Assembly: GCA_946403625.1 (NCBI GenBank)
Contig: CAMJAP010000010.1
Coordinates: 1 to 56,648 of the forward strand
Reading direction: 5' to 3'
Length of the DNA: 56,648 bases
Origin: an uncultured Lachnospiraceae bacterium
GTDB taxonomy: Bacteria; Bacillota; Clostridia; Lachnospirales; Lachnospiraceae
Part shown: in pieces, positions 41,200 through 56,648 of the stretch
Layout: every line of letters starts with the position of its first letter
How positions within the stretch are numbered: position 1 is the stretch's first letter
Program-made: the position numbers and the translations under genes
The notes under the pieces: generated by a model
Told to the model about the DNA's origin: nothing
The model's database searches: none
The model's input: the letters and a program-made list of their open reading frames with translations, nothing else

Positions 41200-41226
41200 T
41201 TAGCACTCTACAGAAACGAGTGCTAA
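41200..41226 (+). promoter_or_regulatory. CIRCE operator (HrcA-binding site) upstream of hrcA
   Basis: TTAGCACTC-N9-GAGTGCTAA, a perfect CIRCE inverted repeat. It lies just after the -10 box and 27 bases before the hrcA start, so HrcA represses its own gene. Confidence 0.97.
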
Positions 41227-41253: not shown

Positions 41254-42291
41254 ATGCAGGGAGAATTAGACGAGAGAAAAAAGAAGATTCTGCACGCTGT
41301 CATTCGTAACTACCTGGAAACGGGAGAGCCGGTGGGCAGCCGTACGATCTCGAAATACACAGATCTGAACCTGAGTTCCGCTACGATCCGTAATGAAATG
41401 TCGGATCTGGAGGAGCTTGGTTATATTGTACAGCCGCATACTTCGGCAGGGCGTATCCCGACGGACCGGGCGTATCGTATGTATGTGGATAATATGATGC
41501 AGGAAAAGGACAAGGAGATCGAGGAACTCAAGGGCCTGTTGGTACAGACCGAGGACAAGATGGACAAGGTCCTGAAGAATGTTGCGAAGGTATTGGCAAC
41601 CAATACGAATTATGCGACGGTGGTATCCGCACCGCAGATCCGCGGCAATCGTCTGAAATTTTTGCAGTTATCCAGAGTGGATGAGAACCAGATCCTGGCG
41701 GTCATCGTTGTGGAAGGCAATGTGATCCGCAATGAGATGATCCATGTGGACGAAGCACTCAGCGATGAGACGATGCTGAAACTGAACATTCTGCTGAACA
41801 CACATTTGACCGGACTGGCATTAGAAGAGATCAATCTGGGGATGATCACGGCGCTGAAAGAGCAGGCAGGCATCCACGGAGATATCGTCGGAGAAGTGAT
41901 GGATGCCATCGCGCAGGCGATCAAGGGCGAGGAAGATCTGGAGATTTACACCAGCGGCGCCAATAATATCTTCAAGTATCCGGAACTCTCGGACAACCAG
42001 AAAGCCAGTGAGCTGATCAATACCTTTGAGGAAAAGAAGGCATTGGCGAGACTGGCCACCGAGAAATTATCCGATGAGGGTAATACCGGCATTCAGGTTT
42101 ACATTGGCGAGGAAGCGCCGGTGCAGGCAATGAAGGACTGCAGCGTGGTGACCGCTACCTACGAACTGGGGGAAGGAATGCGCGGCAGTATAGCGATCAT
42201 AGGTCCCAAACGTATGGACTACGATAAAGTAGTCGGTTCCCTCCGTACGATGATGAATGAATTGGAGAGAGTGTATAAAAAGGAACAGTAG
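41254..42291 (+). CDS. hrcA: Heat-inducible transcription repressor HrcA
   Basis: 345 residues, full length. The N-terminal winged helix with SRTISKYTDLNLSSATIRNEMSDLEELGYI and HTSAGRIPTDRAYRMYVD is the HrcA signature. The C-terminal domain ends in the conserved VKGSIAIIGPKRMDY-type stretch (here RGSIAIIGPKRMDYDKV). It binds CIRCE and represses chaperone genes until heat shock draws away GroEL. It is usually the first gene of hrcA-grpE-dnaK; here a terminator follows and grpE is 12 kb away, with its own CIRCE. Confidence 0.97.
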   Translation: MQGELDERKKKILHAVIRNYLETGEPVGSRTISKYTDLNLSSATIRNEMSDLEELGYIVQPHTSAGRIPTDRAYRMYVDNMMQEKDKEIEELKGLLVQTEDKMDKVLKNVAKVLATNTNYATVVSAPQIRGNRLKFLQLSRVDENQILAVIVVEGNVIRNEMIHVDEALSDETMLKLNILLNTHLTGLALEEINLGMITALKEQAGIHGDIVGEVMDAIAQAIKGEEDLEIYTSGANNIFKYPELSDNQKASELINTFEEKKALARLATEKLSDEGNTGIQVYIGEEAPVQAMKDCSVVTATYELGEGMRGSIAIIGPKRMDYDKVVGSLRTMMNELERVYKKEQ

Positions 42292-42320: not shown

Positions 42321-42350
42321 ACCGCCCGGGAAAGAACCGGGCGGTTTTGT
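42321..42350 (+). terminator. Rho-independent terminator after hrcA
   Basis: ACCGCCCGG at 42321-42329 pairs with CCGGGCGGT at 42337-42345, followed by TTTTG. It makes hrcA a single-gene transcript. Confidence 0.92.
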
Positions 42351-42373
42351 TCTTATAATACCTTTTATCCGGG

Positions 42374-42424
42374 TAGCACGCCCGGATTTTTCTTTAGCAC
42401 GCCGATTTTTTGAATTAGCACGCC
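42374..42424 (+). repeat. Three TAGCACGCC repeats phased at 21 bp
   Basis: TAGCACGCC occurs at 42374-42382, 42395-42403 and 42416-42424, exactly 21 bp apart, two DNA helical turns. The second and third are preceded by T, giving TTAGCACGCC, which shares its first seven bases with the CIRCE half-site. An inverted copy (GCGTGCTA) lies at 42541-42548, after the promoter. The only large space without a gene here (42292-42616) is filled by this array, the hrcA terminator and a promoter. Confidence 0.8.
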
Positions 42425-42482
42425 GTTTGGAAGTGATTTTTTTCGTTTCGCGTCATTTTCGTTGTCGTTCGTGTTTCTTTTA

Positions 42483-42514
42483 TTGACAGGGCATGGTTGA
42501 AACCATAATATAAT
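42483..42514 (+). promoter_or_regulatory. Promoter for the LRR/SLH/DUF4214 protein
   Basis: TTGACA at 42483-42488. TAATAT at 42506-42511 lies at 17 bases; a perfect TATAAT at 42509-42514 would need 20. The start codon is about 100 bases downstream and the inverted repeat unit at 42541 lies in the leader. Confidence 0.7.
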
Positions 42515-42616
42515 GGCGGTTATAAGGGCGGCTGCAAAAAGCGTGCTAGTCTCAACTAACCGGATGGAAGCGGCGATGAGAACGGCTTTTTGGAGTTTTA
42601 TGGAGGTGTGAGAGTA

Positions 42617-45196
42617 ATGAAACGGAAACTATTGGCAAAATTTCTTACGGCAGCGCTGGTCGTGGAGACGGTTCTTCAGGGCTGGGGGGCATTCCCGGTA
42701 CATGCAGCCGGTGAGATTCCGATTGATTCGGCACATTTTCCGGATGCGGAATTTCGGAAGATCATGAATCAGCGATATGATACGAACCATGACGGCTATT
42801 TGGATGAAAGAGAACGCGGCGTTTATAATGTTGTCTGTGAGGGCAACAAAAATGTAAAGTCCATGGAAGGAATTGAGTATTTTCCGGATGTCAGAGGTAT
42901 CTGGTGCAAGGATTGTGATCTGGCTTCCCTGGATCTCAGCCAAAATAAAGAGGTTACCGGTGTATGGTGTTCGGGTAATCCGAGGATCAAATCGTTATCG
43001 TTTCGGGATAATCCGAACCTGGAATGGCTGTATTGCCACGATTGTGATCTGCGATCTTTGGATGTAACACAGAATGATAAATTGGCATATCTGGAAGTAA
43101 ACACAAACGAGTATCTGGGGACGCTGGATGTAACGAATAATCCGAATCTGGAGCATTTAACCTGCGGTACCTGCGGACTCGCCAGATTGGATCTGTCGAA
43201 TAATCCTATCCTTACGCATTTGGACGCTTTTCAGAACAAATTCACCTCTTTGGATCTGTCGCATAATACGCAGCTGAAGAGACTGGATATTTGGAATAAC
43301 AGGGAACTGGGGAATATTGATGTCAGTATTTTCCCGGATCTGGAGTTTTATAATTGTGCATATAACGGAGTTACGGAACTGGATGTAACCCATAACGAAA
43401 GTCTGATGATGTTAATCTGTTCGGGTAACCCGGATCTGAAGAAACTTGATCTGACGCATAATCACAGACTTGCTTGGCTCAGATGTATGAGTACCGGTAT
43501 TAGCAGCCTGAATTTGTCTCAGTGTCCGCAGTTGTATTTCTGCCAGGTTTGTCATAATCCCGGCCTTACCAGTTTGGATATCAGTAATAATACACGGTTG
43601 ATCAAGATCGTGCAGGATGGAGAAATCGATTATTCCGAATATGACGGAATGAACTATGACTGGGTGATCAACTATGGCGGCAGCACGGACTATATGGATG
43701 ATCTTCGCTATTGGTTTATCGTTGATGACGCATGGTGTAATGTAACGGGAGTGCCTTCGCAGCCGGTCGGCAACGGTGATCCGAACTATTATGACTGCTT
43801 TATCAACACGAATGACGGTGCATCCGGAGATATTGTAACTCGCGGCGAAGCAATACAGACGCTGTATGAGTTGGCAGGACGGCCCGGATACAACGGCAGC
43901 GGTGCTTCCCGATTCAATGATTTGGATGGAGAATTTTATAAGGCAGCCGCAATCTGGGGAGCAGAGGAAAACATCGCATTGGGTTATCCGAATGTATATT
44001 CGGACACTTTTGCGGGAGATAAGCCGATTTCCAAGCAGGATCTGGCACTGATGGTTCACAGATATGCATTGGCTTACGGATATGACAGCGCATATGATTA
44101 TGGTAGAACGGATCACTTTAAGGATTCTTTGGACATTGATTTTTATGCCTGGGGTGCATTTACCTATGCGATCCAGTGGGAGATCATTCCGACAAAGGGA
44201 GATTATGTCTATCCGCACGGAAGAGCAACAGCGACGGAGTTTCAGACGGGATTAAAGAATTTTATGGATCATGTCGGAATTTCGAGATCGGTTTCTGTAT
44301 GCACCAGTGGTGGCAACGGAAATCTGACGGCGCAGGATAAGAATACACGACATTATACTAATCATAGTGAATGCTTTGGGAACTCCAATAACGGCGGAGG
44401 CTCCGGGAATAATAACAGCAATCCGGTGAACAACTTTAACAGAGAAGAAGCAACAAAGTTTGTTGATCGTATGTATAAGGTAGTGCTGGGGAGAAACGCA
44501 GACCAGGATGGAGAGAATTACTGGGTGCGTGAGTTGGAAAGCGGCAGAAAAGATGCGGTAGACATTGTATACGGTTTCTTTTATTCGCAGGAATACCAGA
44601 ATTCGAACAAGAGCAATAATGAGATCGTGACGGATTGCTATAATGCGATGTTGGGAAGAGATCCGGATTCATCAGGGTTTGATTACTGGGTTCAGCGACT
44701 GGATGTAGGGATGACCCCGGAGGCGATTCTTGCAGGATTTGTCGGAAGTCAAGAGTTTATAAACCTTTGCAGAGGTTACGGTATAGATCCGGGAACCTAC
44801 AGAACAACAGCTGCAAGGGATCAGAATTATGAACGCACCTATTTTGTATATCGTCTCTATAAGAACTGTCTGGGCAGAACACCGGATGTTGGCGGACTGG
44901 AGAATTGGTGCGGCGAACTCGGAAGAGGCGGCTCCGGTACAAAAGTGGCGTATGGCTTTGTCTTTAGTCAGGAGTATTTGAGAAAGCATACAAGCAATGA
45001 AGAGTATGTGGATATGCTTTATCGTACTATCCTCGGACGCGAGGCAGACTCGGCCGGCAGAAGAAACTGGGTAGGACAGTTGAACAGAGGCGGATCCCGA
45101 GAGCAGGTTCTGAATGGATTTATGCAGAGTCAGGAATTTGCAGAACAATGCAGGAAAGCGGGCATCAATAAAGGTGATCCGATTCCGGAACCGTAA
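42617..45196 (+). CDS. Large surface protein: EF-hand-like loop, LRR, SLH and DUF4214 repeats
   Basis: 859 residues from the ATG at 42617, chosen because GGAGGTG lies eight bases upstream; an in-frame ATG at 42590 lacks a ribosome site. The signal peptide ends near VHAAG (about residue 31). Residues 55-66 (DTNHDGYLDERE) form a complete EF-hand-like calcium loop. Residues about 85-330 are leucine-rich repeats of the bacterial type (LxxLDLSxNxxL). Residues about 400-555 hold SLH-type repeats (IVTRGEAIQTLYELAG, AAIWGAEENIALGYP). After a Gly/Asn linker (592-608), four DUF4214-type units (LGRxxDxxGxxxW) follow to the end. SLH would attach it to the wall polymer; the LRR and DUF4214 parts face outwards. 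Probable adhesin or S-layer-associated protein. Confidence 0.9.
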   Translation: MKRKLLAKFLTAALVVETVLQGWGAFPVHAAGEIPIDSAHFPDAEFRKIMNQRYDTNHDGYLDERERGVYNVVCEGNKNVKSMEGIEYFPDVRGIWCKDCDLASLDLSQNKEVTGVWCSGNPRIKSLSFRDNPNLEWLYCHDCDLRSLDVTQNDKLAYLEVNTNEYLGTLDVTNNPNLEHLTCGTCGLARLDLSNNPILTHLDAFQNKFTSLDLSHNTQLKRLDIWNNRELGNIDVSIFPDLEFYNCAYNGVTELDVTHNESLMMLICSGNPDLKKLDLTHNHRLAWLRCMSTGISSLNLSQCPQLYFCQVCHNPGLTSLDISNNTRLIKIVQDGEIDYSEYDGMNYDWVINYGGSTDYMDDLRYWFIVDDAWCNVTGVPSQPVGNGDPNYYDCFINTNDGASGDIVTRGEAIQTLYELAGRPGYNGSGASRFNDLDGEFYKAAAIWGAEENIALGYPNVYSDTFAGDKPISKQDLALMVHRYALAYGYDSAYDYGRTDHFKDSLDIDFYAWGAFTYAIQWEIIPTKGDYVYPHGRATATEFQTGLKNFMDHVGISRSVSVCTSGGNGNLTAQDKNTRHYTNHSECFGNSNNGGGSGNNNSNPVNNFNREEATKFVDRMYKVVLGRNADQDGENYWVRELESGRKDAVDIVYGFFYSQEYQNSNKSNNEIVTDCYNAMLGRDPDSSGFDYWVQRLDVGMTPEAILAGFVGSQEFINLCRGYGIDPGTYRTTAARDQNYERTYFVYRLYKNCLGRTPDVGGLENWCGELGRGGSGTKVAYGFVFSQEYLRKHTSNEEYVDMLYRTILGREADSAGRRNWVGQLNRGGSREQVLNGFMQSQEFAEQCRKAGINKGDPIPEP

Positions 45197-45211
45197 AAGA
45201 GATCATCGTAT

Positions 45212-45249
45212 GTTGCTGTTCACGGGCGAAAAGAGATGTGAACAGCAAC
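45212..45249. other. Perfect 12-bp stem hairpin without T-run
   Basis: GTTGCTGTTCAC at 45212-45223 and its exact complement at 45238-45249 with a 14-base loop, 16 bases after the stop of the LRR/SLH gene. There is no T-run on either side. It may be an mRNA-stabilising hairpin or a binding site. The rest of 45197-45466 holds the promoter and leader of the next gene. Confidence 0.7.
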
Positions 45250-45335
45250 GATTGTGTGATTGAGATCTGCAAATACCAAGATGTTGTAGAAAAGAGTAAT
45301 CCTTTGAATTTCAAGGAAAAAATCCAAAAAAATCC

Positions 45336-45364
45336 TTTACAAAGCGGATAACGGGGAGTATAAT
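45336..45364 (+). promoter_or_regulatory. Strong promoter of the secreted DUF4214 protein
   Basis: TTTACA at 45336-45341 and a perfect TATAAT at 45359-45364, spacer 17. The leader of about 95 bases contains GGGG and CCCC runs that can pair, then AGGAAAGGAG before the ATG at 45467. Confidence 0.85.
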
Positions 45365-45466
45365 TCCTAACATAAAAATATTCCAAATGAATATAAGGGG
45401 AATATAAAAATTGGGGGGGTAAAAAGGACCCCGTAAAAACCCGGGACGGGAGGAAAGGAGAAAGAA

Positions 45467-46495
45467 ATGAAGAGTAATGGTTTGAAGAAAGCAATCGCAG
45501 TGGCAGGTGCAGTAGGTGCTATGATGTGCCCGATGCTGGCTAACGCAGCAGACAGCCCGGAAACTACTCCGACAGTCGATGATGTTGCGAAGGAAGGATC
45601 CGTTAAATATGATGAAGAAACCGGTAAGGTAACATCTTTTGAAGTTGCTGATGGTGTTGAGGACGGTTATCAGGAGATCAATCTTGGTAACGGACCGGAG
45701 ATGGTTTACATCAAAGACGGTAAGTACAATGCAGAGTTGGATTCCACTGCAGATTTCGTAGCAGGTTTCTATCAGGATGCTTTAGGCAGAGGAACAGATA
45801 AAGCTGGTTTGGATGATTGGGTTAACCAGTTGGCATCCGAAGAGATTGGTGGTGCAGAACTTGCACACGGATTCTTTGCTTCCGCTGAGTATTTGGAGAA
45901 TGCTGAAAAGAACGCAGCTGATGTTGCAGCAAAGAATGCAGCTATCGTAGATGACTTCTACAAAGTAATGCTTGGCCGCACAGCTGATGAAGAAGGAAAA
46001 GCATATTGGGTTGCTCGTTTGAATGCAGGTATGACTGTGGATGCTCTTGTACAGGGATTTGCATACAGTGCTGAGTTTGCTGAGAAGTGTGTAGCATTCA
46101 ATGTAACTCCGGGATCTTATCAGCCGACAGCAGCTGTAGACCAGAACTATGAGCGTACCGCTTTCGCATCTCGTCTGTACACAGAAGCGTTGGGCAGAGG
46201 ATACGATAACGCTGGTTTGGAAGATTGGTGCGGTCGCTTGGATGCAGGTCAGAGCGGTGCACAGGTTGCATACGGATTTGTATTCAGCCAGGAAATGAAT
46301 GATAAGAATCTTTCTGATGAAGCGTTTGTAGAGATGCTTTACAAGGCTATCTTCGGACGCGAGGCTGATCCGGAAGGTCTGCAGAACTGGATCAATGCAT
46401 TGACTGTACACACCAGAGAAGAAGTATTTGATCTGTTCACAGACAGCGTAGAGTTTGGCAATCTGTGCGATAAGGCTGGTATTGCAGTAAAATAA
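45467..46495 (+). CDS. Secreted DUF4214-repeat protein
   Basis: 342 residues. The signal peptide is MKSNGLKKAIAVAGAVGAMM followed by CPMLANAAD, cut after ANA. Residues about 30-75 are an acidic linker. Four DUF4214 units fill residues about 80-342: LGRGTDKAGLDDWVNQL, LGRTADEEGKAYWVARL, LGRGYDNAGLEDWCGRL and FGREADPEGLQNWINAL. The last two resemble the last two units of the LRR/SLH protein upstream (both share VDQNYERT-like and VAYGFVFSQE segments), so the genes are related. Very good ribosome site and promoter and simple codon choice suggest abundant expression. No wall anchor is seen, so it may bind other DUF4214 proteins or the polymer made by the next genes. Confidence 0.9.
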   Translation: MKSNGLKKAIAVAGAVGAMMCPMLANAADSPETTPTVDDVAKEGSVKYDEETGKVTSFEVADGVEDGYQEINLGNGPEMVYIKDGKYNAELDSTADFVAGFYQDALGRGTDKAGLDDWVNQLASEEIGGAELAHGFFASAEYLENAEKNAADVAAKNAAIVDDFYKVMLGRTADEEGKAYWVARLNAGMTVDALVQGFAYSAEFAEKCVAFNVTPGSYQPTAAVDQNYERTAFASRLYTEALGRGYDNAGLEDWCGRLDAGQSGAQVAYGFVFSQEMNDKNLSDEAFVEMLYKAIFGREADPEGLQNWINALTVHTREEVFDLFTDSVEFGNLCDKAGIAVK

Positions 46496-46543
46496 TCTGA
46501 TGCAAAGTTAGGATTGCAGAGATTGAATTCAATTTAGTGTTTC

Positions 46544-46575
46544 AAAAAGGGCAGTTTTTACGACTGCCCTTTTTA
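46544..46575 (+). terminator. Terminator between the DUF4214 gene and the glycan genes
   Basis: AAAAAGGGCAGT pairs with ACTGCCCTTTTT around a 7-base loop, followed by AT. The glycosyltransferase gene begins only about 16 bases later with no promoter of its own visible, so read-through or antitermination may control it. Confidence 0.9.
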
Positions 46576-46590
46576 TAAGTCTTTTTTCGA

Positions 46591-48141
46591 ATGGAAAATC
46601 TGAAGCAGAATATTAAAAATAATATGAAGCGTAACGAAAATGTGATGCTGGTGATGTGCCTGATCGGTGAAGGCATGGCATACCTGTATGCACTTTTGTT
46701 TCGTTATGTCATTTTTAACTGGTATTATAAGAATCCGACCCGTGAATATGATTTTTACAAGGTGTTCTTCTGGGTAGTGTTGCTTTCCTATTGGGCAGTG
46801 TTCCAGTTCCGGAAGAATCGTCGTTCGCCGGTATGGAAGCAGGAATTTGCAGAGAAAGCGTTTGAAGTGATCAAGCAGCATGTAACGATGCTGGTCTGCA
46901 TCCTGTTCTTTTTGTTTTTCATCGGATGGTCGCAGAGAATCTCGCGTACGGTCATGGGAGTTATCCTTGTTTTCGGTATGATCTTCGATCTGCTGATCCG
47001 TTGGCAATATGGTAAGTTTGTTGCAAAGCGTATCCAAAAAGGCCAGAAGGTTTTGGAAGTAATCCTCGTAGCACGCCGGGACGAAGCGGAGCGATTGAAG
47101 TGGTGTATCGAACGCTACGGTTATGATAATGAATGGAAAGAGATTCAGAGTGCATGCCGCGTGACGGAGACGATTTTGTTGGAGGATGATCCGGATCTGA
47201 AAGTGTTGGCACGCAAAAAAGCGGACTTGATCTATCTCTCGGATGGCGTAGCACGCAATTTTTCGTCGGAACAAATCGGCGTGCTGGAAGGTGCCGGACT
47301 CCCGATTTGTCGTGAACTGGGAGAGAGTTCCGAAACGGACATGGTGGTAAAACTGGGAAAAAGAGCCGTTGTGTACCGGAATCTTATGAACTATACATCT
47401 CCGGTGCTGGGGGTCAATTATACGACATCTACAATTTCGGAAGTGGCGGGATATTTGATCCGGCATGCCGAAGATTTGGCGGGAGAGTATATCTGTTTTT
47501 CCAATGTGCATACGACGGTGATGGCAGCGGATGATCCGGAATATTGTGAGATACTGAACAGTTCGGCAATGACTTTTCCGGACGGAATGCCGGTTGCCAA
47601 AAAGATCCGCGAGAACGGATTTGCCGAGGCAGAGCGTGTGGCCGGACCGGATCTGATGGAAGCATTGTTCCGCCAGAGTATGGGAACCGGCAGAAAGCAT
47701 TATTTCTACGGATCCAGTGAAAAGACGATCGCGCAGCTGGAAAAAAATCTGAAGGAACGCTACCCCTGGATGGAGATCGTAGGAATGGTTTCCCCGCCGT
47801 TTCGTACATTGACGGAGGAAGAAGATGCGGCCGCCATTGCAGAGATCAACGAAAGCGGTGCGGATTTTGTCTGGATCGGATTGGGAGCGCCCAAGCAGGA
47901 AAAGTGGATGAATGCGCATAAGGGCAAGATCAATGGTGTGATGCTTGGCGTGGGGGCCGGTTTTGATTTCCACGCCGGTACGGTAAAGCGAGCCCCGTCC
48001 CTGATCCGTAGTTTGGGGCTGGAATGGTTTTACCGCCTGTTGCAGAATCCGGGGCGCCTGTTGAAACGCTACTTTATTACCAATACGAAATTTCTTTTAT
48101 ATACAAAATTGAAAAAGGGAAGAAAGGGGAGCAGCAAATGA
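46591..48141 (+). CDS. WecG/TagA/CpsF glycosyltransferase fused to a sugar-transferase-like membrane half
   Basis: 516 residues. The first about 270 residues have three or four transmembrane helices (about 18-38, 55-72, 95-115, 118-135) and then a nucleotide-fold-like region, the layout of the N-terminal half of polyprenyl glycosylphosphotransferases but without their catalytic end. Residues about 275-500 are a WecG/TagA/CpsF domain: FSNVHTTVMAADDPEYC, SAMTFPDGMPVAKKIR with the catalytic Asp, and WIGLGAPKQEKWM. It would add the second sugar to a lipid-linked sugar made by the next protein. The start has no ribosome site; 46624 is an alternative. The stop overlaps the ATG of the next gene. Confidence 0.85.
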   Translation: MENLKQNIKNNMKRNENVMLVMCLIGEGMAYLYALLFRYVIFNWYYKNPTREYDFYKVFFWVVLLSYWAVFQFRKNRRSPVWKQEFAEKAFEVIKQHVTMLVCILFFLFFIGWSQRISRTVMGVILVFGMIFDLLIRWQYGKFVAKRIQKGQKVLEVILVARRDEAERLKWCIERYGYDNEWKEIQSACRVTETILLEDDPDLKVLARKKADLIYLSDGVARNFSSEQIGVLEGAGLPICRELGESSETDMVVKLGKRAVVYRNLMNYTSPVLGVNYTTSTISEVAGYLIRHAEDLAGEYICFSNVHTTVMAADDPEYCEILNSSAMTFPDGMPVAKKIRENGFAEAERVAGPDLMEALFRQSMGTGRKHYFYGSSEKTIAQLEKNLKERYPWMEIVGMVSPPFRTLTEEEDAAAIAEINESGADFVWIGLGAPKQEKWMNAHKGKINGVMLGVGAGFDFHAGTVKRAPSLIRSLGLEWFYRLLQNPGRLLKRYFITNTKFLLYTKLKKGRKGSSK

Positions 48142-49580
48142 TATCCAAAGGCAGAAATTCGTTTAAGCATATTGATTTTATGCTCCTTGATCTGCTCCTG
48201 GTTCAAATAGCCTTACCATTGGCATATCTGATCCGGCAAGGAGATCTGACACTTTACGAAAAAGATGCATACCAGACATGTGTGATCTTACTTGTTGTAG
48301 CGGCCATTGTGAACGGATTCTTTACAGAGAATTACAAGAATATCCTGAAGCGTGGTTATATGAAGGAACTGGTTGCTACGCTGAAGTATATTGTGTTGAA
48401 TGTCCTGTTTTTGATCTTTTGGCTGTTCTTCAGCAAGCAGGGAGATCAGATCTCGCGTTCCGTCGTTATTTATTTTGTGTTGATTTTCGGTGTGGCCAGC
48501 TACGCAATGCGCAATCTTTGGAAGATTCATGTGCGCGTGCGGATTGCCAAGAATAAAAAGAATCAGCAGCATCTTTTGGTGGTTACGCACAGCAGTATCG
48601 CCGGTGATGTGGTGGCGGAATTCCTTTCCCATATGCTGGAGCCGGTGGAAGTGGTTGGGCTGGTCACGGTGGATGACGGAATCCCGACCGGCACAATGGT
48701 AAACGGGGTGGAAGTTATTTCCGTTTATGCGGAGGCGATCGATTATATCCGTGTCAACTGGGTGGATGCCGTGTATATCAAACTGCCGCATGATGTTCGG
48801 ATGCCGGAGAGTCTGTTGAATAAGTGTGCAACAATGGGTGTTACGACCTATCAGTGTCTGGTAATGGAATCGGAGCGCAGTGTGGTGCAGTCCATAGACC
48901 GGATCGCGGGCAATATTGTAATGGTAGAGAGTATGAACATTGTTCCTCCGGGGCGTCTGTTTGCCAAACGGATTCTGGATATCGTAGGCGGTCTGGTAGG
49001 CGTGGTCTTTACATTACTTTTGATGATCTTTGTTGCGCCGGCGATTTTTTTTACCGATCCGGGTCCGATCCTGTTCAGTCAGAACCGTGTGGGAAAGAAC
49101 GGGCGAATCTTTCGGATTTATAAATTCCGCAGTATGTACCGGGATGCCGAAAAGCGGAAGAAAGAACTGATGGAAAAGAACACCATGCAGGGCTTAATGT
49201 TTAAAATGGATGATGACCCCCGTATTTTGGGCAGCGGCCCGGACGGCAAAAAGCATGGGATCGGCTGGTTTATCCGTAAGACATCGATCGATGAGTTCCC
49301 GCAGTTTTGGAATGTTTTGAAAGGGGATATGTCCCTGGTAGGTACTCGCCCGCCGACGGTGGATGAGTGGGAGCAGTACAAGCTGCATCATCGTGCAAGG
49401 CTGGCAATGAAACCCGGGATCACGGGATTGTGGCAGACCAGTGGCAGAAGCCAGATCACGGATTTTGAAGATGTGATCAAACTGGACCTGCAGTATATCA
49501 ACAGCTGGTCGATCGCCGGAGATCTGCGTTTGATCCTGAAGACAGTGGGAGAAGTGTTCAAGTCCAAAGGGGCGAAGTGA
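48138..49580 (+). CDS. Polyprenyl-phosphate sugar transferase (exopolysaccharide initiation)
   Basis: 480 residues from the ATG at 48138, which overlaps the previous stop (ATGA) and follows AAAGGGGAG; a longer frame from 48024 has no ribosome site. Four to five N-terminal transmembrane helices (residues about 10-135), a central nucleotide-fold-like domain (140-265) and a C-terminal bacterial sugar transferase domain (about 275-480) with KFRSM, SIDEFPQFWNVLKGDMSLVGTRPP and KPGITGLWQ. It transfers a sugar phosphate from a UDP-sugar to undecaprenyl phosphate, starting a surface polymer. It makes the acceptor for the WecG/TagA-type enzyme of the previous gene. Confidence 0.93.
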   Translation: MISKGRNSFKHIDFMLLDLLLVQIALPLAYLIRQGDLTLYEKDAYQTCVILLVVAAIVNGFFTENYKNILKRGYMKELVATLKYIVLNVLFLIFWLFFSKQGDQISRSVVIYFVLIFGVASYAMRNLWKIHVRVRIAKNKKNQQHLLVVTHSSIAGDVVAEFLSHMLEPVEVVGLVTVDDGIPTGTMVNGVEVISVYAEAIDYIRVNWVDAVYIKLPHDVRMPESLLNKCATMGVTTYQCLVMESERSVVQSIDRIAGNIVMVESMNIVPPGRLFAKRILDIVGGLVGVVFTLLLMIFVAPAIFFTDPGPILFSQNRVGKNGRIFRIYKFRSMYRDAEKRKKELMEKNTMQGLMFKMDDDPRILGSGPDGKKHGIGWFIRKTSIDEFPQFWNVLKGDMSLVGTRPPTVDEWEQYKLHHRARLAMKPGITGLWQTSGRSQITDFEDVIKLDLQYINSWSIAGDLRLILKTVGEVFKSKGAK

Positions 49581-49598
49581 GCTTTCGGTGACAAGAGA

Positions 49599-49627
49599 TT
49601 GACTTTTATTTATTTCTGTTTTATTCT
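49599..49627 (+). promoter_or_regulatory. Possible promoter for the LCP gene
   Basis: TTGACT at 49599-49604 and TATTCT at 49622-49627, spacer 17, 45 bases before the TTG start at 49672. Confidence 0.6.
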
Positions 49628-49671
49628 GTTATGTACCAAAACGGTTGCTGAAGAAAGGGAGGATCCGAATA

Positions 49672-50982
49672 TTGAAAAAGGTATTGGTTAGGATATTTTT
49701 GGGATTGTTTGTGCTGATACTTGTCGGCGGCGGTGTCGTGGGCGGTTTGTATCTTTCCGGTCGTAATAAATTGAAAACAGAAGTACTTGCCGGAGAGGAT
49801 ATCGGAGCCATCGGCGGATTTGAAGATCCTGTTCCGACAACGGATCTGCCGGTCATGGAAATGGATGAAAACGGTAATGTGACCATGATCGATCAGAACG
49901 GAGAAGTGGTGAAACAGCAGGAACCGGATGCACCTGAAACACCGGAAGTTATTGCGGAAAAAGATCCGATAGAGACGCCGGAAAATGCAGTACAAGATTC
50001 GGCACAAAATCAGGTACAAAGCACATCACAAAATCCGGCGCAAAACACATCACAAAATGCATCACAGGAGAAAACATCTGCTCCGGAGACATTTAATACT
50101 GCGCCGGCCAATACAGTTGAGATGAAAAGTGATGAAGCCGGAGTAGTAACTTATAAGGGGCAGAGATATCGTTATAATGAAGACTTGATCACGATCCTTG
50201 TAATGGGTATTGATAAGAATTCTACAGTAACGGCTGCTTCACATGGCAGTGATGGCGGACAGGCAGATGCGATCTTTTTGCTGTTACTGGATGGTAGCAG
50301 TGGTCAGATCAATATTGTAACGATCAATCGTAACTCTATGGCAAAGGTGGATGTATATAATAGGAACGGTTCCTATTTTGGTCAGGGTATGATGCAGCTG
50401 ACATTGCAGCATGCATACGGAGATGGTATGGGTGTGAGCAATGCACGTATGGCAGAGGCAGTATCCCGTATGTTCCATAATATTCCGATCCATGCGTATG
50501 CATCCTTGAATATGGCAGGTATTGCAACCTTAAACGATACGGTCGGAGGAGTGACGGTTACACCGATCATGGATATTCCCGGATCTTCGATCAGAAAGGG
50601 TGAACCCATTACTCTGATGGGCAAACAGGCGTATGACTATGTACATTGGCGTGATATAAATGAGTTTGCGTCTGCGGATTTGCGTCTGGAGCGTGAAAAA
50701 CAGTATCTGGCAGCGTACGGAAAGAAGGTACTGGCGCAGATCAAGACCGATCCTTCAGTGGTGACCGGTTTGTATAATGCCGTTCAGAAGTATCTGGTAA
50801 CCGATCTGAGCCTGGATCGGATCACCTACCTTGCAGCAGAGGCAGGCGGTTATCATTTTGATGCAGCAAATATTTACAGCGTTCCGGGAACCACAAAGAT
50901 GGGACGCCGGTATGAAGAGTACTATGTTGACGAAGAAGCTCTGCGTGATCTGATCATTCGGTTGTTCTTCAAGCAGATCTGA
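49672..50982 (+). CDS. LytR-CpsA-Psr (LCP) family glycopolymer ligase
   Basis: 436 residues from a TTG at 49672, nine bases after AAAGGGAGG; another TTG at 49645 lies before this ribosome site. One transmembrane helix at about 4-25 and an outside part. Residues about 85-135 form a flexible linker with Gln/Asn/Ser repeats (SQNPAQNTSQNASQ). The LCP domain (about 175-380) is seen in LITILVMGIDKN, GGQADAIFLLLL, TINRNSMAKVDV with the conserved Arg, and NDTVGGVTVT. LCP enzymes attach lipid-linked polymers to peptidoglycan or proteins. Its neighbours make such a polymer. Confidence 0.92.
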   Translation: MKKVLVRIFLGLFVLILVGGGVVGGLYLSGRNKLKTEVLAGEDIGAIGGFEDPVPTTDLPVMEMDENGNVTMIDQNGEVVKQQEPDAPETPEVIAEKDPIETPENAVQDSAQNQVQSTSQNPAQNTSQNASQEKTSAPETFNTAPANTVEMKSDEAGVVTYKGQRYRYNEDLITILVMGIDKNSTVTAASHGSDGGQADAIFLLLLDGSSGQINIVTINRNSMAKVDVYNRNGSYFGQGMMQLTLQHAYGDGMGVSNARMAEAVSRMFHNIPIHAYASLNMAGIATLNDTVGGVTVTPIMDIPGSSIRKGEPITLMGKQAYDYVHWRDINEFASADLRLEREKQYLAAYGKKVLAQIKTDPSVVTGLYNAVQKYLVTDLSLDRITYLAAEAGGYHFDAANIYSVPGTTKMGRRYEEYYVDEEALRDLIIRLFFKQI

Positions 50983-50999
50983 TCGGAAAACTGCTTTAT

Positions 51000-51028
51000 T
51001 TGACATCCGATCTCTATTAATTTATACT
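51000..51028 (+). promoter_or_regulatory. Promoter for the two Wzz-like genes
   Basis: TTGACA at 51000-51005 and TATACT at 51023-51028, spacer 17, 79 bases before the start codon at 51107. Confidence 0.8.
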
Positions 51029-51106
51029 TATGCAATGTGTTGTCGCCGTTCTTTCCCGGACGGTGACAATCATTTATTGCGGTTTGCAACAAAGGAGTTG
51101 GAGGAG

Positions 51107-52648
51107 ATGACTGTGAAAAACGAAAAAGAAGTGCTGACTCAGACAGAGGATGAACTTCTCTCCGGCAGAGCATCCCAGATCAATCTGGTGATGAACAGTC
51201 CGCAGGATGAGGAAGATACCATTGATCTGGGGAATGTATTCCGGAAGATGAAACAGGAGAGCCGGAAGTATCTTTTGCTGATGCTACTGTTTATGGTAGC
51301 CGGCGTGAGCATTGCGTTGCTGGTCTATCAGTTTACCAAGGAGCCGGAGCAGGTATCGTCGGTAGTAACACTGAAGTACCAGGTGAACGGGCAGGCCGTA
51401 ACGGATATGACAGCACCGGACGGATCAGAATTGGATCTGTCCATGTTTACATCGTCTTATGTTTTGAATAACGCATTGAATGGGGTGACACTTTCCCAGC
51501 CGATCAGTCTGGAATCCCTGCGGAACAATCTGAGCATTCAAAAGATCATTACCAAGGATTCAAGACGCCAGCAGGAATTGGTTTCCAGCATGATGGAAGA
51601 TAAGAATGAAGACGCGTATGATCAGGCAAGTGCTCTTCATTTGGTATATCAGAACAATTTCATGGTCAATCTGCAGAACGGTTTTTCTACCGGGCTTTCT
51701 AATGACAGCAAAAAGGTGTATCTGACCTCCGAGGAAATGCAGGTACTCCTGGAGAGAGTGATCTCTTCCTATAATGAATATCTCTATCGTACCTATGCAG
51801 ACTTGTATCTCCCGGGTGATGAGATTTCGGTGATCGACTACGCAAACCTGGATGTGTTGGACAGCCTTGATCAGCTGGATGCCGGTATGGATAATCTGTA
51901 TGCGTACTGTAACGGCAGATCCGGTGAGATGAAAGCATATCGTTCCTGGAGAACGGGCCATTCTTTATATGATCTGATGGATTCGATCCGTACTCTGGAA
52001 AATGTGGATATCAACTATCTGCGTTCTTATGTATATTACAAATCCATTACCGATGACCTGCAGAATATTCTGACGAGATACAGATACCAACTGCGTCAGA
52101 AAGAGATGCAGATTGAAGAACTGAAGGAAAAGATCGCTACTACGGATGCAATCCTGAACTCCTATCAGAATGACAGCGTGTTCGTTTCTTCTTTGGATAA
52201 TGCGACCAATATGACAACAGAGACGACAACGGAATATTATAACCAGTTGGTGATGACTCAGGCAGGGTATTATGAATCGCTGGCTTCCCTAACGGCGTCG
52301 GCTGAGAACCTTTCCATCAGGATTGCCAGACTGGAAGAAAACGGTGTAGCGACTGCCGTATCGCCGGAGGTGCGTGTGGAACTGGAGCGTGTATTTAAAG
52401 ACGCTGCGGATCTATATAATGAGATCAGTGATCAGGTGACGGAACTGATGGACAATCCGTTTCATGTAAACTATCTGGATCATACTGCTGCACAGGGAGA
52501 TAATGAAAGTTTCTTAAAAGCCGGTATGATGAATATACTGATCGGTGCAGGTGCCGGTTTTGCGATCGCATTTGCGATGTGGTTTATGGCAGCACTGATC
52601 CCGGAGATGTTCGGTGAAAAGAAAGAGGAAAAGGAGACGGCAAGATGA
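51107..52648 (+). CDS. Wzz-like polysaccharide co-polymerase
   Basis: 513 residues from the ATG at 51107, chosen for AAAGGAG nine bases upstream; the longer frame from 51035 has no ribosome site. After an acidic start, EEDTIDLGNVFRKM and a transmembrane helix (about 55-75) open the outside domain, which is long and coiled-coil-forming. A second helix at about 478-497 (GMMNILIGAGAGFAIAFAMW) closes it, followed by a short charged cytoplasmic tail. This is the layout of chain-length regulators (Wzz/CapA type). There is no tyrosine-kinase domain. It overlaps the next gene by four bases. Confidence 0.82.
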   Translation: MTVKNEKEVLTQTEDELLSGRASQINLVMNSPQDEEDTIDLGNVFRKMKQESRKYLLLMLLFMVAGVSIALLVYQFTKEPEQVSSVVTLKYQVNGQAVTDMTAPDGSELDLSMFTSSYVLNNALNGVTLSQPISLESLRNNLSIQKIITKDSRRQQELVSSMMEDKNEDAYDQASALHLVYQNNFMVNLQNGFSTGLSNDSKKVYLTSEEMQVLLERVISSYNEYLYRTYADLYLPGDEISVIDYANLDVLDSLDQLDAGMDNLYAYCNGRSGEMKAYRSWRTGHSLYDLMDSIRTLENVDINYLRSYVYYKSITDDLQNILTRYRYQLRQKEMQIEELKEKIATTDAILNSYQNDSVFVSSLDNATNMTTETTTEYYNQLVMTQAGYYESLASLTASAENLSIRIARLEENGVATAVSPEVRVELERVFKDAADLYNEISDQVTELMDNPFHVNYLDHTAAQGDNESFLKAGMMNILIGAGAGFAIAFAMWFMAALIPEMFGEKKEEKETAR

Positions 52649-54228
52649 AGAAAGAAGCAAAGAAGCAATCTGCAGCGATTAAATATCTCGTTGTTTTGGC
52701 CGTATGTCTCCTGGTGGGGATCATTGTAACGATTGCCGTATTTTTCAAGGACAGCGATCGCATATCGGCAAATTCCTCCGTGCTGTTTGCATTTGACGGT
52801 GCGGCAAACGGGGTGACTCCGAGCGGTGATGAGTTTGATATCAGCGGTATCGGCGCAGAGGATGTTTTGAGTGCGGCGCTTACGGAATGTAATTTGCAGG
52901 ACAAATATACAACGGATCAGATCCGCAGCAGTCTGTATGTGCGCGGTGTTTACCCGGAGGATATTGCGGAGCAGATCCTGAGTTTTGAATCCCTGTTTGA
53001 TTATGAGTCCAGCAAGACATTTACTCACGATGGATTCTATGCAACCAGATATAATATTGCACTTTACAACGATTTCGACAGACACATTTCCAAGGATCAG
53101 TTGAGTAAGATCCTGAGTGCGGTGATGGTTGCTTATCAGACCTCATTCAAGGCAGAGTACAGCGAGGCTTGGGATGCAAAACTGGTAGATCTGAATCTGG
53201 AAAACTACGATTATATCCAGCAGCTGTCTATTTTAACTGAAAGAATGGATCAGGTGGGGGATTATGCGGCACAGATGTATCAGAAGGAATCCAAAGTGAT
53301 CACCGGAGGGCAGACCTTCAATGATATTAACATTCGGATCCGGAATCTGTCGGATAATGAAATTCCCCGATTGCGTGCACTGGTAATTCTGGGTGGTCTT
53401 TCCAAAGACCCGGAGAGGCTGTTGCTGCAGTACCAGTACGAGATTGAGAACCTGTCAATTCGTTTTCGTAACCAGAAGGAACGCCTGGAAGAGGTAGAGA
53501 AACTGCTGGATGCTTACGAAAAGAATGAAGTGTTGTATATCAGTTCCGGGGATTCGTTTACGAAGATTGACGGCAATTCTTCCCAGACATATGACCAGCT
53601 GGTAGCGGAACGCCGATCTGTTGCAAACGGGATCACGGAGATCAAGACGGATATTTCCGAACGTCTGCTGAGAATGGGTGATATTATCGGCGATGAAGCA
53701 GAATCATCCGAATACTTTATTCAGGTAAATGAAATGCTTCGTGAGCAGATGGACGAAGAGGAATACCGGCAGTTACTGGATGAAATGTCGGAAGAAGGCG
53801 GCGAGAACGCAGAGACTGTTGAGGAATCGGAGGAAACGGATAACGGTGAGAATCCGGATGAACAGGCGCTTCCCGAAGAAGATACCCAGGCATCCGTTCG
53901 TAAAGGGCGTATAGATATCGACATTGAAGCGGCAGCACTGGAATCGGATATTTATGCGTTGGTTGACAAGATCGCTGTGATCGAGAACGACTTCAATGCG
54001 ATGCTTGAAATATATAATGATGAACAGTTTAATGATATGACCATTGTACTTTCCCCTTCTGCGGTAAGTTCCAAGAAGCTTATCTCCGGCGCATTCATTA
54101 AAGCCGGCATCAAGAATGCGGGACCGTTTATGGCAATCGGCGTGATGATCTGCGTGATCATGCTGCTTGCGGATTCCGGTAAAAAGACTTCCGCTCCGAA
54201 GGAAAAGAAAGAGAAGAAGGAAGACTGA
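52645..54228 (+). CDS. Second Wzz-like two-helix membrane protein
   Basis: 527 residues. One transmembrane helix at about 12-32 and a second at about 495-513 with a long coiled-coil outside domain between them, as in the preceding protein, and a Lys-rich cytoplasmic end (KEKKEKKED). Weak sequence similarity but the same layout, so probably a distant paralogue forming a pair. Residues about 370-420 are an acidic insertion. Starts with ATGA overlap. A terminator follows, which ends the polymer block. Confidence 0.72.
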   Translation: MKKEAKKQSAAIKYLVVLAVCLLVGIIVTIAVFFKDSDRISANSSVLFAFDGAANGVTPSGDEFDISGIGAEDVLSAALTECNLQDKYTTDQIRSSLYVRGVYPEDIAEQILSFESLFDYESSKTFTHDGFYATRYNIALYNDFDRHISKDQLSKILSAVMVAYQTSFKAEYSEAWDAKLVDLNLENYDYIQQLSILTERMDQVGDYAAQMYQKESKVITGGQTFNDINIRIRNLSDNEIPRLRALVILGGLSKDPERLLLQYQYEIENLSIRFRNQKERLEEVEKLLDAYEKNEVLYISSGDSFTKIDGNSSQTYDQLVAERRSVANGITEIKTDISERLLRMGDIIGDEAESSEYFIQVNEMLREQMDEEEYRQLLDEMSEEGGENAETVEESEETDNGENPDEQALPEEDTQASVRKGRIDIDIEAAALESDIYALVDKIAVIENDFNAMLEIYNDEQFNDMTIVLSPSAVSSKKLISGAFIKAGIKNAGPFMAIGVMICVIMLLADSGKKTSAPKEKKEKKED

Positions 54229-54356: not shown

Positions 54357-54383
54357 TTAGCACTCCAACCAAACGAGTGCTAA
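54357..54383 (+). promoter_or_regulatory. CIRCE operator upstream of grpE
   Basis: TTAGCACTC-N9-GAGTGCTAA, a second perfect CIRCE, 40 bases after the start of the -35 exactly as at hrcA. HrcA from 41254-42291 should repress here. Confidence 0.97.

Positions 54384-54409: not shown

Positions 54410-56648
<2,239 letters not shown>

Follow-up and report, generated by a model that had tools for sequence, protein, structure and literature searches.

The DUF4214 module as a probable non-covalent anchor to a cell-wall glycopolymer in Lachnospiraceae

In the genome of an uncultured Lachnospiraceae bacterium (3.5 Mb, 195 contigs), seven genes on one strand separate hrcA from grpE on contig C10, the stretch of 56,648 nucleotides analysed here and referred to as the window. 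The first two of these genes encode secreted proteins that carry a four-unit module of DUF4214 (PF13946), a helical domain family that has received little study. We propose, with a probability of about 0.62, that this module is a non-covalent wall anchor binding a cell-wall glycopolymer. The proposal is based on gene content, protein architectures and gene co-occurrence, on a fold predicted with confidence, and on the finding that module and sugar genes differ between relatives at one and the same chromosomal site. Client proteins scattered over the genome alongside one polymer pathway, the presence of the module on wall enzymes and on a phage endolysin, and the exchange of the module for others together lead to this reading, which is similar to that of the CWB2 modules and their polymer PSII.

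At the level of whole genomes, DUF4214 follows a particular set of glycan genes. We compared six genomes of the family that contain DUF4214 with 54 that do not, the window's own (G000) and Catenibacillus scindens (G053) being part of the sample, and used one-sided tests. The glycosyltransferase gene GT4c was found in 5/6 of the former (G000, G017, G042, G053 and G054) and 3/54 of the latter genomes (p 5.9e-5), whereas WecG was present in 2/6 and 9/54, respectively (p 0.30). Among 35 genomes of the genus, own included, GT4c and DUF4214 occur in the same two (2/2 vs 0/33, p 0.0017). A DUF4214 gene lies within or next to the GT4c locus in G042, G053, G054, G017 and the sibling genome G074, at a distance of about 8 kb in G053 and less than 1 kb in G042, two genomes that harbor at least 80 DUF4214 units each over many contigs. 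It is the GT4c/Wzm/Wzt pathway, absent from the window, that tracks DUF4214, and not the WecG block within it. The preliminary description of the locus had suggested that DUF4214 domains bind, or are modified by, the polymer made by the neighboring genes; a functional link to a surface polymer holds, but not via the genes it named, as WecG does not track DUF4214 and the block also occurs in the DUF4214-free genome G078.

The remaining parts of the pathway are encoded elsewhere in the same genome. Contig C103 (11.6 kb) contains Wzm, Wzt, a 165-residue protein and the three GT4 genes GT4c, GT4d and GT4e, and further transferases are located on contig C20 together with a LoaP-like gene. The reported lack of a flippase, polymerase and further glycosyltransferase is hence correct for the stretch that had been read but not for the genome, and the pathway is not as compact as described; two more DUF4214 proteins are also found outside the window. 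The absence of a flippase and a polymerase from the window could be explained by export through an ATP-binding cassette (ABC) transporter, as the Wzm, Wzt and GT4 genes suggest. DUF4214 is matched 16 times in the genome as a whole, by four genes: the two of the window and another two on contig C124. The latter encode a transglutaminase/Big_2/CAP protein (Pfam) and an LRR_5-like protein, each with a DUF4214 module; their neighbors are a membrane-type protein of 653 residues that matches no Pfam family and, where the contig ends, an epimerase-like gene. In G074, a sheep-rumen Lachnospiraceae metagenome-assembled genome of the same genus, the whole set resides on one contig within about 27 kb, with two DUF4214 genes at each end: an LRR-DUF4214 protein, a small DUF4214 protein, the WecG fusion (74% identical), the transferase (81%), the LCP protein (69%) and a membrane protein are followed by a LoaP-like gene, transferases, Wzm, Wzt, GT4c/d/e (GT4c being 77% identical to that of C103), a CAP-DUF4214 protein and an LRR_5-DUF4214 protein, the last being an LRR_5 protein by Pfam. 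The window's genome also brings together the TagA-like combination of a WecG/TagA enzyme, an ABC exporter and an LCP ligase.

The proteins on which DUF4214 occurs point to the wall as well. A scan of public genomes, in which the best 80 of 141 relatives were kept, yielded 73 loci, some from the same genomes, in records titled Lachnospiraceae, Oscillospiraceae, Ruminococcaceae, other Clostridia and the like. From 142 representative DUF4214 proteins we scanned 118 for Pfam partners, all of them complete and encoded in these loci or in G054. Two proteins described below, the endolysin and the GT4c fusion, were deliberately kept out of this count and scanned apart, and from a further batch of 22 the scan covered the G017 methyltransferase alone; all partner counts are lower bounds. 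The partners comprise CAP (at least 11) and Transglut_core (at least 9), as well as LRR, Big_2 and choline-binding repeats, and the wall-enzyme domains YkuD (at least 4), Polysacc_deac_1 (at least 3), Amidase_3, NLPC_P60, Phage_lysozyme2 and Beta-lactamase2 (at least 2 each), Peptidase_S11 (at least 1) and GH25 (at least 1). DUF4214 is hence common to functionally diverse secreted proteins including wall enzymes, as is characteristic of the wall-anchor class. Four closely related viral contigs encode an endolysin-type protein with a C-terminal DUF4214 region; the two tested by Pfam consist of an ELLD catalytic domain and two DUF4214 units, and three relatives of this catalytic domain possess PG_binding_1 or SH3_3 in the place of DUF4214. 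Rescanning viral contigs with the endolysin part returned the same four. The Catenibacillus DUF4214 module led nowhere among viral contigs and gave one weak match, EBPR siphovirus 2, among phage records, and a PDB search with whole DUF4214 proteins, swamped by choline-binding-type repeats and therefore listing clostridial toxin chains, led nowhere either.

A second exchange is apparent at the hrcA/grpE site itself. Of the 35 genomes of the genus, 31 gave an hrcA match, and we examined the hrcA stretches of 17 relatives (L099-L115). The grpE gene directly follows hrcA in 15/17, with dnaK 2.7 kb further on in one of the relatives, G073. The exceptions are G072, which has other genes after hrcA up to the contig end, and G078 (99% complete), whose hrcA is 98% identical to that of the window and which contains a further hrcA copy on a different contig. 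The G078 insert spans about 64 kb on one contig and is composed of an LRR protein, glycan genes and surface proteins, then the linkage block and grpE. This block corresponds to that of the window in its WecG fusion (65% identity), transferase (69%), LCP protein (60%) and two membrane proteins (65 and 58%); a search of the G078 genome gave no DUF4214 match and no GT4c. Over residues 1-570 of the window's LRR protein, that of G078 is 48.7% identical to it, yet the G078 protein ends in a different repeat module. This module is related to a pair of G072 proteins (E 5.6e-18), of which one has a Choline_bind_4 match, and is present again within the same G078 locus in seven reading frames of L212 and another four of L307. 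The linkage block is thus common to both genomes at one site, whereas module and sugar genes differ. DUF4214 is in this way exchanged with known wall-binding modules, PG_binding_1 or SH3_3 in the endolysins and Choline_bind_4-related repeats in G078, which is a further mark of the wall-anchor class.

The DUF4214 module of the window's LRR protein is predicted by AlphaFold with high confidence (pLDDT, the predicted local distance difference test, 94.9), and its fold is similar over the domain to that of phycobilisome linkers, which are protein linkers inside light-harvesting complexes. A remote sequence relation is visible too: against the linker family PF00427 (gathering score 28.7) the two window proteins reach 24.6 and 22.4 bits, under this score, and a protein of G054 reaches 33.4 bits. 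The latter (L194 18072-19943) joins a GT4c glycosyltransferase and four DUF4214 units in one chain. The single DUF4214 match of G017 is an internal unit of a methyltransferase encoded between Wzt and GT4c (L198 10001-11569); the N-terminus of this methyltransferase resembles proteins of about 150 residues found in GT4c loci, and we take the protein to be reminiscent of chain-terminating methyltransferases.

The fold invites the view that DUF4214 is a protein-protein assembly module like the phycobilisome linkers, which would form a lattice or bind a common protein partner and be co-located with glycan genes because surface genes cluster. We consider this unlikely, because it does not readily explain why an endolysin carries DUF4214 where its relatives have PG_binding_1 or SH3_3, why fusions of the domain with GT4c and with a methyltransferase exist, or why it co-occurs with GT4c; in contrast to the PF00427 linkers, DUF4214 sits on secreted proteins, an endolysin and sugar enzymes. 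The same co-occurrence and the GT4c-DUF4214 fusion would also fit a DUF4214 domain that is a glycan acceptor, glycosylated by GT4c/d/e, with the fusions bringing the enzyme to its substrate. An ABC exporter and an LCP ligase appear better suited to a wall polymer than to protein glycosylation, however, and an acceptor domain would be unexpected in a phage endolysin in place of a binding domain, so that we regard this as improbable. Least probable of all is that an ordinary exopolysaccharide block happens to lie by unrelated surface proteins and the DUF4214 link is accidental, which would agree with the lack of tracking by WecG, the different module beside the G078 block and the recurrence of the arrangement in 1/73 loci, but not with the distribution of GT4c and DUF4214 over the genomes of the genus and the family.

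Several points weigh against a wall-anchor function of DUF4214. Its fold is a protein-linker fold, and at least 13/118 of the scanned proteins also possess Choline_bind_3 repeats as a second possible anchor. C103, the contig with GT4c in the window's genome, carries no DUF4214 gene, and the link between the two in this genome rests on G074. In G012, moreover, DUF4214 is present and GT4c is not (at E<=1e-40), and the reverse is true of G006, G007 and G034, in which the GT4c locus occurs and DUF4214 does not. As seeds of the GT4c profile we used DUF4214-linked loci or the orthologue of the window's genome, four of them from sampled genomes, and the co-occurrence tests ignore the relatedness of the genomes; G053 was not among the seeds, and the profile also finds DUF4214-free genomes. 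G078 is flagged as 8% contaminated.

Neither does the proximity of single DUF4214 genes to glycan genes speak for an anchor. We compared the loci with 21 clostridial control stretches (from G042, G053, G012 and G017), hand-picked at round coordinates before annotation; genes outside annotated records were taken as the longest open reading frames without curation, and glycan labels reflect similarity to seed proteins of a few loci. Two or more glycan genes were present in 8/73 public loci of all lengths, in 5/42 of those of at least 15 kb compared with 1/21 controls (p 0.34), and in 5/25 family regions compared with the same 1/21 (p 0.14). Among plasmids, 115 records had a DUF4214 match, and 16 neighborhoods with flanks of 2.5 to 15 kb were examined by product names. 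Eleven of the 16 contain at least two polysaccharide genes (for H18, a polysaccharide deacetylase has to be included to reach two), one contains a single such gene (H42) and four contain none (H5, H10, H19 and H35). For ten of these plasmids, a control stretch was taken at half the plasmid length from the DUF4214 stretch (in one case shifted to fit a linear record), and such genes were present in 6/10 DUF4214 stretches compared with 4/10 same-plasmid controls (p 0.33). As the controls did not differ significantly, we rejected proximity as proof. The small alphaproteobacterial plasmids pTHAF8_c and Sulfitobacter sp. S190 unnamed2 (L245, L253) carry several DUF4214 genes as well as KDO (3-deoxy-D-manno-octulosonic acid) or rhamnose pathway genes, the S190 plasmid also with an ABC transporter pair.

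A specific pairing of DUF4214 with WecG and LCP genes was rejected on three grounds, the distribution of WecG, the presence of the block in G078 and the scarcity of the arrangement in public loci. The neighborhood of WecG, transferase and LCP genes beside DUF4214, which the preliminary description proposed to look for in other genomes, is repeated in one of the 73, that of the sibling G074. One point in favor of that description comes from G012 (L197 8715-13113), whose only DUF4214 gene immediately precedes a WecG/TagA gene, an order also seen in the window. Random placement relative to such clusters, named there as the sign of an accidental association, is not rejected for single DUF4214 genes, while a link is visible at the genome level.

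The gene order reported for the window is real, and all features lie on the forward strand. The left border of the inserted locus is formed by hrcA (41254..42291, Pfam HrcA 8e-67), preceded by a CIRCE operator (41200..41226, 0 mismatches to the searched pattern, none expected by chance). The secreted LRR protein (42617..45196) has an SLH-like middle part and the C-terminal four-unit DUF4214 module (44438..45193; Pfam 1.2e-58, 195.5 bits), and the small secreted protein (45467..46495), with a hydrophobic N-terminal segment at residues 9-29, mostly consists of such a module (2.3e-50, 169 bits); both exceed the gathering score of 23.2. An SLH domain had been assigned to the LRR protein as its attachment to the wall. 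Its SLH match of 14.5 bits (E 0.035) stays under the Pfam cut-off of 20.8, leaving this anchor unsupported and the DUF4214 module the likelier one; CWB2 was found in neither of the two proteins at E<=0.01. These genes are followed by a glycosyltransferase with an EPS_sugtrans-like membrane N-terminus (2.2e-10) fused to a C-terminal WecG/TagA domain (46591..48141, 4.7e-57), a polyprenyl glycosylphosphotransferase as initiating enzyme (48138..49580, Bac_transf 7.4e-61, start codon by inspection), an LCP family glycopolymer ligase (49645..50982, LCP 1.6e-14) and two paralogous membrane proteins (51107..52648, start codon by inspection, whose counterpart at this site in G078 is 65% identical; and 52645..54228). 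The name Wzz-like given to the latter two could not be confirmed, as it relies solely on hydrophobic segments near both ends: no Wzz family was among the profile matches, the structural model is of low confidence (pLDDT 60) and Foldseek gave no match at E<=0.001. A second CIRCE operator (54357..54383, 0 mismatches) precedes grpE (54410..55111, start codon by inspection), the right border.

The hrcA stretches of all 17 relatives contain one CIRCE operator each, and G078 has a further one upstream of grpE (L308 7783). The presence of two operators in the insert-bearing genomes suggests that the insert arrived with, or later gained, an operator copy, through which HrcA may continue to control grpE-dnaK. 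In the interval that separates hrcA from the LRR gene (42350-42580), TAGCACGCC occurs three times in direct and once in inverse orientation and could serve the locus as an operator; a comparable inverted pair is located upstream of the G078 LRR gene. A tyrosine-integrase-like gene, recognized by eye, lies between two LRR_5-type proteins after hrcA in G072 (L101 6775-7782) and hints at a way in which the site may gain inserts. In G003 of the same genus, three surface proteins (L201 1-7600) have a C-terminal region of about 350 residues in common (32-44% identity), possibly another anchor module, and a WecG fusion is encoded four genes downstream of them.

Under the wall-anchor reading, the polymer would be built in the cytoplasm by GT4c, GT4d and GT4e, exported by the ABC transporter Wzm/Wzt and then attached to the wall by the LCP ligase, and the DUF4214 module of secreted proteins would grip the wall-bound polymer as its presumed ligand; this order of enzymatic steps is deduced from the genes. 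The window would contribute two anchored clients, the LRR protein and the small protein, and a block for initiation, linkage and ligation made up of the sugar transferase, the WecG fusion, the LCP protein and the two membrane proteins, while the remaining pathway genes and a further two clients are encoded elsewhere in the same genome. More tentatively, and with the odds rather against it, DUF4214 might recognize the polymer on both sides of the membrane: inside, the GT4c and methyltransferase fusions would hold or measure the growing chain, outside, the module would fix surface proteins and a phage lysin to the finished wall-bound chain, and strains would swap the module with matching sugar genes while keeping the linkage and ligation block.

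Wall teichoic acid is made by a TagO-TagA-TagGH-LCP pathway, to which the window's genome is similar in its TagA-like WecG, ABC exporter and LCP ligase; the transferase beside WecG, however, belongs to Bac_transf (PF02397), a family other than that of TagO. CWB2 modules of Clostridioides difficile cell-wall proteins bind the polymer PSII, for which a likely locus has been proposed (PMC4973711), and a C. difficile phage endolysin uses a CWB2 binding domain that is probably host-derived (PMC9045149). DUF4214 is alike in being a repeated, non-covalent module on many surface proteins with a parallel in a phage endolysin, but it is of another domain family, its binding is proposed here from genes and architectures, and its polymer would leave by a Wzm/Wzt-type ABC transporter. 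SLH domains bind secondary cell wall polymers (PMC12175726), and the proposed role of DUF4214, non-covalent binding to a wall-linked polymer, is similar; DUF4214 is another family, though, and the SLH match of the window protein is sub-threshold.

For DUF4214 itself, anchoring of surface proteins has already been suggested in segmented filamentous bacteria, where it is named as a likely surface-anchoring domain (PMC12780176), and a role as an S-layer component has been suggested elsewhere (PMC11970703). The domain is the same and the proposed role the same or similar, but the passages of both papers relevant here mention neither a ligand of glycan nature nor a set of enzymes or an exchange of modules. 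Among open-licence PMC papers, four use the name DUF4214, but we found no mention of PF13946 and none joining a phycobilisome linker with an S-layer or with cell-wall surface proteins of Firmicutes. New here are the likely ligand pathway, the GT4c and methyltransferase fusions, the exchange in the endolysin and the difference in module and sugar genes at one site. A domain of unknown function thereby gains a testable type of ligand and named enzymes expected to make it, and a wall-anchor system of Clostridia, possibly including segmented filamentous bacteria, is opened to direct test, with the phage lysin module as a potential probe for the polymer. The differences at the hrcA/grpE site suggest that the anchor of surface proteins and the wall polymer may be exchanged jointly at one chromosomal site.

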